64,000 bases of DNA from Anaerolineales bacterium (GTDB lineage: Bacteria > Chloroflexota > Anaerolineae > Anaerolineales > Villigracilaceae): assembly GCA_025056175.1 (NCBI GenBank), contig JANWWK010000056.1, positions 1-64,000 on the forward strand, in the 5' to 3' direction. Under the pieces are notes generated by a model that searched no databases, had not been told where the DNA came from, and saw nothing but the letters and a program-made list of their open reading frames with translations. Positions 52,345 through 55,174 of the stretch are shown here, piece by piece. The translations under genes were made by a program, and so were the position numbers. The stretch's first letter is position 1; each line of letters starts with the position of its first letter.

Positions 52345-52367
52345 GGTAATTGGTGAGTGGTAGTTGG
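52345..52367. repeat. Short degenerate heptamer run GGTAATT-GGTGAGT-GGTAGTT
   Basis: Three consecutive 7-bp units starting at the aminotransferase start codon. Confidence 0.5.
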
Positions 52368-52512
52368 CTTGCTTTTTAGGCGCAACGTTACCTGAAAGTA
52401 GCCGCGCTGACGATAGAAAAAATATCTGCTCCATCGCGGATTTTTTGAAACAAATCAAGGTTGATTGTTCCACTTGGGTAGTTGGTTTTTTCTTGAATCA
52501 TAATCAGTTCAG

Positions 52513-52848
52513 TCAGTACCAGCAAAACTCTACGGAATATTCGCCATACTGGCTGAGCTTCTGAAATCGGGTTACATCAGAAGGCTTAAAAATCTGCAAA
52601 GACGGCGGGAATGTATCGGCTGGGGCAACTTTCAGGATAATATTTTGAATAATATGGTCAACCAGCGTATTTGTAAGCGTCAGATTGCCTGTTCGTTTTG
52701 CAAATAAGTCCACAACCAGATGAATATGCTTGGGTGTTCTTAATCTTTTGTTTGGTTCACGATATTTGACAATAAAATCATAAGGAGACTTGCTGCCACG
52801 TTCAACATGGATTTCAACCTGGTTGGAAGTAGTATAGACGATTGGCAT
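52513..52848 (-). CDS. Unknown 111-aa protein, downstream of and close to the XRE regulator
   Basis: 6-bp gap to the XRE gene; no recognised family; basic/aromatic-rich. Confidence 0.65.
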   Translation of the reverse strand: MPIVYTTSNQVEIHVERGSKSPYDFIVKYREPNKRLRTPKHIHLVVDLFAKRTGNLTLTNTLVDHIIQNIILKVAPADTFPPSLQIFKPSDVTRFQKLSQYGEYSVEFCWY

Positions 52849-52854
52849 TTTTAC

Positions 52855-53073
52855 TCAGTTCTGGTTGGATGACAGGAAATGTGAAATGGGCTTGCCGTAA
52901 AGTTTCGCAAATGCTTCAAGTTCAAAAATATCCAGGCGGCGCTTACCTGTTTCACAGCGCGAAACATAAGATTGAGTCTTATGCAGTTTTTCGGCAACTT
53001 CGCCTTGACTCAATCCTAGCGTCTCACGTAGTTCACGAAGTTTGGCGGCAATTTGATTATTCGTGTCGCTCAT
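52855..53073 (-). CDS. XRE-family HTH regulator (72 aa; controller-protein-sized)
   Basis: IAAKLRELRETLGLSQGEVAEKLHKTQSYVSRCETGKRRLDIFELEAFAKLYGKPI. Confidence 0.92.
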   Translation of the reverse strand: MSDTNNQIAAKLRELRETLGLSQGEVAEKLHKTQSYVSRCETGKRRLDIFELEAFAKLYGKPISHFLSSNQN

Positions 53074-53082
53074 GGCAAGACC

Positions 53083-53101
53083 TTATGCAAAAACTGCATA
53101 A
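53083..53101. promoter_or_regulatory. Operator-like inverted repeat TTATGCA-AAAAC-TGCATAA
   Basis: Perfect 7-bp arms, 9 bp upstream of the XRE start; same architecture as 54057-54075. Confidence 0.75.
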
Positions 53102-53103
53102 AT

Positions 53104-53134
53104 AAAAAATCGCCCCTTATAAGGAGCGATTTTT
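53104..53134. terminator. Terminator hairpin between methylase and XRE gene
   Basis: AAAAAATCGCcCCTTATAAGGaGCGATTTTT; T-tract on both strands. Confidence 0.8.
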
Positions 53135-53158
53135 GAGAACGGTGATAAGTCAGGTATT

Positions 53159-54043
53159 TTACGGCGCATAATTGATAACCACCAATTCGCTAATTTTTCC
53201 GCGCTTTTCTGGATTTGAATTAATGGCGCGAGAGGCCTTTACTTCGATACAAGTGAAGTCTTTGTACAAGTCTAGAACAGGTTTTACCCAAGAATTACTC
53301 AACATCACTTTACAGCCGCGACTATCTAATTGACGAAAAAGCGCAGCAAGTTCTATCTGTTCTCGCTCACCAAACGATTTTTCGGTGTAACTTGTAAAAC
53401 TAGATGTTTTCGATACGGGCGCATAGGGCGGGTCGAAATAAATAAAATCACCCGCTTGCGCCCAATTTAATGTGTCTTTAAAGTCACATGCAGCCAGTTC
53501 AACATCTTGCAAAGCCTGGCTTGCTGTTACCAACTCGTCAACGTCAAAAATCGCAGGGTCTTTGTAACTTCCCATTGGCACGTTAAATTGACCAGAACGA
53601 TTAACGCGATATAAACCATTAAAACAAGTTTTGTTGAGATAAATAAAACGCGCCGCTCTTTCAATATCTGTAAGTCTGCCGGGGCGTAGAGAACGGATTT
53701 GATAGTAATACTCTTTATTGTGACTTTTACGATGCGCTGCAAGGAGCTCTATCAATGCTCTTACATCGTCACGGACAATGCGATAAGTATTAATCAATTC
53801 TGCATTGCTATCTGTAATTCTGGCAGAGGTAAAACTAAGTTTTCCTTTTTCTCGCAGGCTAAAAATATGCCAATATACGGCAGCGCTTCCTGCAAATGGC
53901 TCGCAATATCGAGAAAAATCTTTAGGAAAAAAGTCAGTCAGTTGATCTATTAACTGGCTTTTCCCGCCCGCCCATTTTAGGAATGGTTTAGGAAAAATTC
54001 GTTTGGTCTGAATTTCAAATAATAAAGGCTGGTTGATTAACAT
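53159..54043 (-). CDS. D12-class (Dam-type) DNA adenine N6-methyltransferase
   Basis: PFLKWAGGKSQLI, YCEPFAGSAAVY, NKTCFNGLYRVNRSGQFNVPMGSYKDP, DFIYFDPPYAPVS. Confidence 0.95.
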   Translation of the reverse strand: MLINQPLLFEIQTKRIFPKPFLKWAGGKSQLIDQLTDFFPKDFSRYCEPFAGSAAVYWHIFSLREKGKLSFTSARITDSNAELINTYRIVRDDVRALIELLAAHRKSHNKEYYYQIRSLRPGRLTDIERAARFIYLNKTCFNGLYRVNRSGQFNVPMGSYKDPAIFDVDELVTASQALQDVELAACDFKDTLNWAQAGDFIYFDPPYAPVSKTSSFTSYTEKSFGEREQIELAALFRQLDSRGCKVMLSNSWVKPVLDLYKDFTCIEVKASRAINSNPEKRGKISELVVINYAP

Positions 54044-54056
54044 ATCACTGCCTGTT

Positions 54057-54075
54057 TTATGCAATTATCGCATAA
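54057..54075. promoter_or_regulatory. Operator-like inverted repeat TTATGCA-ATTAT-CGCATAA
   Basis: Same arms (one mismatch) and 5-bp spacer as 53083-53101; 13 bp upstream of the methylase start. Confidence 0.7.
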
Positions 54076-54276
54076 AGCCTGTTTTCTTACAAACGCTAAA
54101 TTGTCGAAGAGGGCAAGTCAACGGTTGGCTTCATCGGCGGGCGGGGGACTTGGCGGGAAAAAGCCAAAGGGCGAACCCGCCAAAGGCGCCGAATCCCCTC
54201 GAGCGGGGCGAACGCCCCCGCCCGTCTGGGTGCAAGCGGTGTTGGACGCGTTTTGAGGTACCAGAACCTATGCCCT

Positions 54277-54588
54277 TTACTGTTGTGCTTGCTGACCAGA
54301 CGATTTTTGATGCCTTACATGTGCTTCCATATATGCTCGAAGTAAGGAATTTATGCGCGTTTGATAGCCGCGCCCTTGCGACTTGAACCACGTCAAGACA
54401 TCCTGGTCAACCCGAATTGTTAACTGGGCTTTATTCTTTTTCACTTTCAAACCGCGCTTGACTACGGCTTTTGCAAACATTTCTGGAGTTAATTCGGGAA
54501 TATCGGACAAATCAATATTCTCATCATCCATTGCTTCAAGCCGTTCCCAATCAGTTTGAGATTTGTTGGAAATAGTAGATTTGCTCAT
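54277..54588 (-). CDS. brnA: BrnA-like antitoxin
   Basis: KAQLTIRVDQDVLTWFKSQGRGYQTRINSLLRAYMEAH; overlaps the BrnT gene. Confidence 0.9.
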   Translation of the reverse strand: MSKSTISNKSQTDWERLEAMDDENIDLSDIPELTPEMFAKAVVKRGLKVKKNKAQLTIRVDQDVLTWFKSQGRGYQTRINSLLRAYMEAHVRHQKSSGQQAQQ

Positions 54589-54826
54589 TTTTTGTCGCTT
54601 TTCTTGCCGAGATGATACGGATATTTTCGCCGCGTTCCGTATAGACTACGACAACAACCGTGCTTCTCAAGATGCCGATAACAATAAAACGGTTTTCGCC
54701 ATCGTCGAAACGCTCATCTGGGATGGTCACTATATCGCCGTCAAAGATTTCTTCGACATCGAGAAAATCAATACCATGCTTTTTGATATTGATTTGGCGT
54801 TTTTGCTCATCCCATTCGTAACTCAT
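54551..54826 (-). CDS. brnT: BrnT-like toxin
   Basis: YEWDEQKRQINIKKHGIDFLDVEEIF...RFVIGI-type core...RIISARKATKNEQIYY. Confidence 0.93.
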   Translation of the reverse strand: MSYEWDEQKRQINIKKHGIDFLDVEEIFDGDIVTIPDERFDDGENRFIVIGILRSTVVVVVYTERGENIRIISARKATKNEQIYYFQQISN

Positions 54827-54904
54827 ATTTATATTGTAAGTATTATGTGTAGTTACGTCAACTAATTGCGCCGAAAAATCGCCCCAATGGTTTGTAAAGG
54901 TTCG

Positions 54905-55174
54905 CTATGTTTTACTGCGCCAGCGCCCAACATTAATTTCGATGGCGTAGGGTTTGTGGCGGCCATGCCAGCCGAAGGATTGCCAGGTCCAGCGGACGAG
55001 CGGCAGGAAACTGGCGGTGAGCAGGTAGTTGTGGTCGAGGATTTCGCCGATGCTCCACGCTTTGGGGGCCGGGCGCTGCCAGATTTGGGACTCGCTCAAT
55101 CCGTTGAGCGTGGCGAAGGCAGCCTTGCGCTGGCGGTCGAGCAGGTCGAGGTAGGCGGGAACGACAGTTTGCAT
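54905..55174 (-). CDS. DinB-like protein, unusually short (89 aa), possibly 3'-truncated
   Basis: MQTVVPAYLDLLDRQRKAAFATLNGLSESQIWQRPAPKAWSIGEILDHNYLLTASFLPLV; ends at the island edge. Confidence 0.6.
   Translation of the reverse strand: MQTVVPAYLDLLDRQRKAAFATLNGLSESQIWQRPAPKAWSIGEILDHNYLLTASFLPLVRWTWQSFGWHGRHKPYAIEINVGRWRSKT

Follow-up and report, generated by a model that had tools for sequence, protein, structure and literature searches.

A probable controller-regulated, GATC-specific restriction–modification system with a candidate endonuclease of an undescribed small family in Anaerolineae

An AT-rich segment in a 64-kb stretch of DNA from an Anaerolineales bacterium (the whole stretch is referred to here as the window) carries a Dam-type methylase, a small XRE regulator and a 111-aa open reading frame, which raises the question of what the last of these does. 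A preliminary description proposed that it may serve as a small effector of restriction or as a new partner in a methylase–controller system. Our analysis favors a specific form of that proposal, namely that the methylase, the regulator and a ~153-aa gene constitute a mobile module encoding a controller-regulated, GATC-specific Type II restriction–modification (R-M) system, the endonuclease of which represents an undescribed small family and was recently inactivated in the window genome. We assign a probability of roughly three in four to this reading as a whole, the mobility of the module included.

An inserted island carrying a methylase and a probable controller

All five reading frames of the preliminary description are present at the positions it gave. 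The features of the island are as follows.

52370–54960 (approximate ends), no strand: AT-rich inserted island carrying the module and brnTA, delimited by the GC profile and by the empty site in the sister species (G986, locus L066)
52513–52848, minus strand: 111-aa open reading frame, covering the N-terminal part of the candidate endonuclease gene of ~153 aa, with relatives 74–95% identical
52855–53073, minus strand: 72-aa XRE/HTH regulator, probable controller (HTH_31, E=8.6e-16)
53083–53101, no strand: operator-like palindrome TTATGC-N7-GCATAA ahead of the XRE gene, conserved in L003, L004 and L019
53105–53134, minus strand: terminator-like hairpin (inverted repeat I5) between methylase and XRE gene, with counterparts in L003, L004 and L019
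53159–54043, minus strand: D12/Dam-class adenine methylase, nearest to DpnM (PF02086, E=9.6e-64; TIGR00571, E=1.7e-85)
54057–54075, no strand: second operator-like palindrome of the form TTATGC-N7-GCATAA, lying across the methylase −10 box, conserved in L003, L004 and L019
54064–54069 and 54087–54092: −10 box and −35-like TTGTAA of the methylase promoter
54277–54588, minus strand: BrnA antitoxin (PF14384, E=6.7e-19), island passenger outside the module
54551–54826, minus strand: BrnT toxin (PF04365, E=7.9e-30), island passenger outside the module
54905–55174: DinB-like gene cut short by the island but complete, with 179 aa, in the sister species (L066, 1717–2256)

In the sister species the insertion site is empty, with an aminotransferase gene and the intact DinB-like gene lying 27 bp apart; in the window the island has replaced the 3' part of the DinB-like gene, which has lost ~110 codons. 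The GC content is 40.5% in the module and 41% in brnTA compared with ~60% in the flanks, and the earlier statement that the genes are all AT-richer than their surroundings thus holds for the island as a whole, but not for a 150-bp patch of 66% GC between methylase and brnA (~54110–54260), which contains an inverted repeat (54138–54154 and 54208–54224). The order methylase, terminator, XRE gene, 153-aa gene is common to the window and three other loci (L003, L004 and L019); in all four the module lies ~14–20 percentage points of GC below its surroundings, and in the three other loci its neighbors differ.

The brnT/brnA assignment is upheld: the toxin gene comes first, the genes overlap by 38 bp, and both products score above the Pfam cut-offs, as is characteristic of BrnT/BrnA toxin–antitoxin systems. 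The pair had been grouped with the methylase in a single defense-like island, and the two do share an insertion; however, brnTA is missing from L003, L004 and L019, which carry the same module, and we therefore rejected it as part of the system. BrnT/BrnA is an ordinary toxin–antitoxin pair, a passenger of the same insertion.

The methylase and regulator assignments likewise stand. The closest structure to the methylase in the PDB is DpnM of the DpnII system (2dpm, E=4.7e-68), with Escherichia coli Dam at E ~6e-36, and its reading frame is apparently intact in the window; a separate DNA methylase gene, as in Type II systems, is recognized by both the Pfam and the TIGRFAM profile. The XRE protein shows weak similarity to PADLOC control proteins. 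The palindrome TTATGC-N7-GCATAA occurs exactly twice in the whole 3.57-Mb genome, both times at the module, and in all four D12-linked loci the −10 box of the methylase promoter (GATAAT, CATAAT or AATAAT) is placed at the palindrome center, 17 bp from the −35-like hexamer.

This arrangement resembles that of C-regulated Type II systems such as Esp1396I, PvuII and Csp231I, in which a small HTH regulator precedes the nuclease gene in an operon, the methylase has a separate promoter, and operators are present at both. At all four loci the regulator shares a predicted operon with the candidate endonuclease, the methylase is placed on its own promoter, and operator-like palindromes mark the putative methylase and controller promoters. 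C.Esp1396I acts on the operators of both the methylase and the endonuclease genes (PMC3758141); the usual C-boxes are tandem GACTtatAGTC sequences, whereas the C.Csp231I operator is CTAAG-N5-CTTAG (PMC3115060). The present module differs from both in having a single TTATGC-N7-GCATAA per promoter, and no classical C-box was found at these promoters. We therefore file the XRE protein as C-like rather than as a classical C protein. The simplest reading is that it acts as a controller that would repress the methylase and set the level at which it is itself expressed together with the 153-aa gene.

A small gene family found beside DNA methylases

The 111-aa reading frame is not a complete protein. 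Its relatives in L003 and L004 have 153 residues and are ~75% identical over the shared part, and DNA alignment shows that a T-run in the window lacks one base relative to L002, L003 and L004. The frame is thereby shifted and ~45 residues are removed, so that the 111-aa frame represents the first two-thirds of a ~153-aa protein, of which the remainder can still be read in another frame. The preliminary description was thus correct on the position of the frame and its spacing of 6 bp downstream of the XRE gene, but what it took for an uncharacterized 111-aa protein is a frameshift-truncated piece of a longer gene. The lost part includes the conserved segment ELxxIQEKTNYPxG, and the window copy of the candidate endonuclease is probably truncated and dead. 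The features concerned, together with broken or very distant family members elsewhere, are as follows.

52524–52527, minus strand: T-run (four T on the coding strand), the frameshift site
52391–52531, minus strand: out-of-frame remainder of the ~153-aa gene, family residues 107–153 (profile match, E=7.8e-20)
L023, 6631–7135: family copy with a broken frame, adjoining an intact methylase
L024, 6671–6931: family copy with an internal part missing, adjoining an intact methylase
L039, 3559–4098, and L040, 5065–5604: very distant relatives of 179 aa, neither of them next to a DNA methylase

In the readable part of the 153-aa gene dN/dS is 0.07–0.09, similar to that of the methylase, which indicates purifying selection and implies either a recent loss or, for the window copy, perhaps a mistake in the sequence. 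If the sequence or its assembly were wrong and the gene intact in the organism, this would concern the window copy only and would be compatible with the R-M reading; the single-base length difference within a homopolymer and the strong purifying selection both speak for such an error. Against it stand independent lesions in L002, the nearest relative of the window, from the same genus and the same chromosomal site: the start codon is changed from ATG to ACG, a second T-run is lengthened, the XRE gene lacks its first ~42 residues, and a search of the genome gave no match to the D12 methylase. Decay is therefore under way in the genus of the window, and we consider the error explanation rather doubtful, at about one chance in four.

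The pattern of decay is asymmetric. In the window, L023 and L024 the candidate nuclease gene is broken beside a methylase with an open frame, and in L002 the nuclease gene is broken and the D12 methylase gone; among close relatives, no intact copy is demonstrably without a methylase (L020 ends at a contig edge). Small as the numbers are, this is the asymmetry that would be expected of a toxic nuclease and a protecting methylase.

The 153-aa family has no match in Pfam, NCBIfam, PADLOC or PHROGs, and a profile search against the PDB returned weak, chance-like matches (best E=0.045); it thus belongs to no known unrelated family that would contradict the proposed role. No relatives were found in plasmid, phage and IMG/VR collections, and no nuclease fold or motif was recognized. 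Two structure predictions, run on 3–4 sequences each, were of low confidence (pLDDT 45 and 46), too low for use in a fold search. The family is rare, being found in 7 of 396 Anaerolineae, in 5 of 400 genomes phylum-wide, and in 8 of the 294 genomes from the class to which G531 belongs.

Its members with readable flanks all lie beside a DNA methylase of one of three types, except the very distant L039 and L040 (in L002 and L020 the contig breaks off before the neighbor can be read). A D12 methylase adjoins the family member in the window, L003, L004 and L019, the last three of which retain the same methylase/XRE pair, in line with the co-occurrence anticipated earlier. The neighbor is an N6_N4 methylase in L005, L021–L026 and L036, and a convergent CcrM/DpnA-type methylase in L027 and L038. 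While the D12 and N6_N4 methylases do not match each other, the 153-aa proteins of D12-linked members are 54–63% identical to those of L020, L021, L022 and L026. No other nuclease candidate is adjacent to the module in the four D12 loci, and the sole candidate for the endonuclease of a Type II system is consequently the 153-aa family, which matches no known fold or family.

Most of the N6_N4 methylases (among them L021, 4993–6582; L022, 7048–8850; L005, 3180–4823; L036, 6058–7677) have an N-terminal segment that, from our reading of the sequences, is zinc-finger-like (CPIC...H...H) and HTH-like; this segment may replace the separate XRE protein of the D12 version. In L025 (3885–6825), a methylase and a 185-aa relative are flanked by what look like fragments of a different restriction system, a 116-aa frame resembling an N-terminal portion of Mod and a PD-(D/E)XK-like 118-aa frame, as if an insertion had split them. 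G944, the genome of L039, has a full DpnII-type endonuclease gene elsewhere.

Loss of GATC sites and the nature of the small protein

A probable footprint of restriction is seen in the base composition. In the window, GATC occurs 6 times compared with 250 expected from 2- and 3-mers, and in samples of 15–104 kb from each of the five genomes in which the module or a remnant of it is present, the observed and expected counts are 13/402, 4/95, 3/103, 4/156 and 0/48 (ratios 0.00–0.04). These values are wholly separate from those of 28 Anaerolineae lacking the module, 0.27–1.43, a set that consists of 16 Anaerolineae (0.69–1.43) and 12 more genomes, 7 of them from the family of G143 (0.27–0.92), picked by contig availability rather than at random, with several genomes being incomplete assemblies. 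Since G000 and G987 share one insertion, four events are counted against the 28 controls, and complete separation has a probability of ~3e-5 if the genomes are taken as independent, relatedness being ignored. The sister species with the empty site has a ratio of 0.69. No 4-base palindrome other than GATC has a ratio below 0.05 in every one of the five; in the window and two further samples of G000 (L073, L074), AGCT (0.24) and CTAG (0.29) as well as GGWCC and TTCGAA are also under-represented. GATC depletion in Dehalococcoidia was dropped as support, as G401 is depleted as well and lacks the family.

Methylation alone does not account for the loss. Six Anaerolineae (G234, G254, G363, G340, G369 and G286) have orphan Dam-type methylases of the same family, 54–63% identical to that of the module, with no XRE gene, operator or 153-aa gene nearby, and their GATC ratios of 0.60–0.95 are not comparable with the depletion seen here; the methylase by itself thus does not remove GATC. 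Known GATC nucleases were rejected as the cause as well: MutH/Sau3AI-type nucleases are absent from all five genomes, and DpnII (PF04556) is absent from G987, G983, G984 and G143. G000, the window genome, has a partial DpnII-superfamily match of 30 bits elsewhere, beside an N6_N4 methylase (G000:C29:46760–47921; loci L113 and L051), which is probably a second, unrelated restriction system.

The footprint does not extend uniformly to the rest of the family. The N6_N4-linked relatives, 54–63% identical, show no consistent GATC depletion (0.44–0.96 in Anaerolineae), and hence either their specificity must differ or the link between family and site is less direct. The search for their site by palindrome depletion was inconsistent, pointing to TCGA and AGCT in genus g57 and to CTAG, GGCC and GATC in G545, with nothing clear in G531 and G059. 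In the genus of L021, L022 and L024 (G077, G121 and G045), which has the N6_N4-linked version, TCGA and AGCT are strongly depleted; one of them might be the target of that version, or the depletion might reflect other systems.

The conserved operators and the module-tied loss of GATC argue for a restriction system, and the DpnM-like methylase and the depletion agree on GATC as the putative site at which, in a Type II system, methylase and endonuclease would both act. We propose that the DpnM-like methylase would mark GATC, that the XRE protein would bind the two TTATGC-N7-GCATAA palindromes, at the methylase −10 box and in front of the operon to which it belongs, and so balance methylase and nuclease expression, and that the 153-aa protein would act as the endonuclease cutting unmethylated GATC. 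In the window genome, the endonuclease gene would recently have lost its reading frame, with methylase and regulator apparently intact. The earlier suggestion of a restriction effector is supported by the same evidence, nuclease activity being the predicted part. The lack of a recognized nuclease fold or motif, the low-confidence models, the N6_N4-linked relatives without consistent depletion, and the occurrence of L039 and L040 without a methylase count against the R-M reading, and a GATC nuclease of another family may be present elsewhere in the module genomes.

Such a nuclease is the premise of a different, unlikely explanation, in which the 153-aa protein would assist DNA methylases by binding DNA or through regulation, and GATC would be depleted by an unrecognized enzyme. 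That no nuclease motif or fold is recognized in the protein, that it accompanies several methylase types, and that G000 has a partial DpnII-like gene would all fit; however, depletion tracks the module at four separately inserted loci and is missing with the methylase alone, the DpnII and MutH families are absent from the four other genomes, and it is the 153-aa gene that decays while the methylase stays intact. A toxin with another target (for example RNA), restrained by methylase and regulator as in a toxin–antitoxin or abortive system, is very improbable: the small size, the operon with an XRE regulator and the broken gene in L002, where the methylase is missing, are in keeping with it, but the genes it is paired with encode several classes of DNA methylase and no typical antitoxin, and the near-complete loss of GATC would be left unexplained.

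Relation to known systems and implications

As a GATC system, the module is most readily compared with DpnII-type systems (DpnM, DpnA and the DpnII endonuclease), to which it is linked by DpnM, the solved structure nearest to its methylase, and by the predicted target. It differs in that the 153-aa candidate has no match to PF04556 and is about half the length of that model (153 aa versus 278 positions), in that no DpnA-type second methylase lies alongside, and in the presence of the XRE regulator and operator-like palindromes. The kind of system is thus known, while the apparent novelty lies in the endonuclease family and the type of operator; a literature search, with REBASE outside its scope, found no description of either. 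A farther-reaching proposal, which we regard as tentative and less likely than not, at just under one in three, is that the ~150-aa family forms a new structural class of restriction endonuclease with none of the known nuclease folds, paired with three classes of DNA methylase and recognizing sites that differ by pairing.

PvuII has 157 residues. If the R-M reading is correct, it would add an endonuclease family that is absent from current family libraries, is about the size of PvuII, and has a length at which annotation labels proteins hypothetical. The target site of an uncharacterized methylase partner would be assignable from genome-wide site loss, with a sister species that lacks the insertion and the orphan-methylase genomes serving as controls. 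The other methylases that adjoin the family in Chloroflexota would become candidates for further specificities, and there would be a cause for the near-complete lack of GATC in these Anaerolineae.
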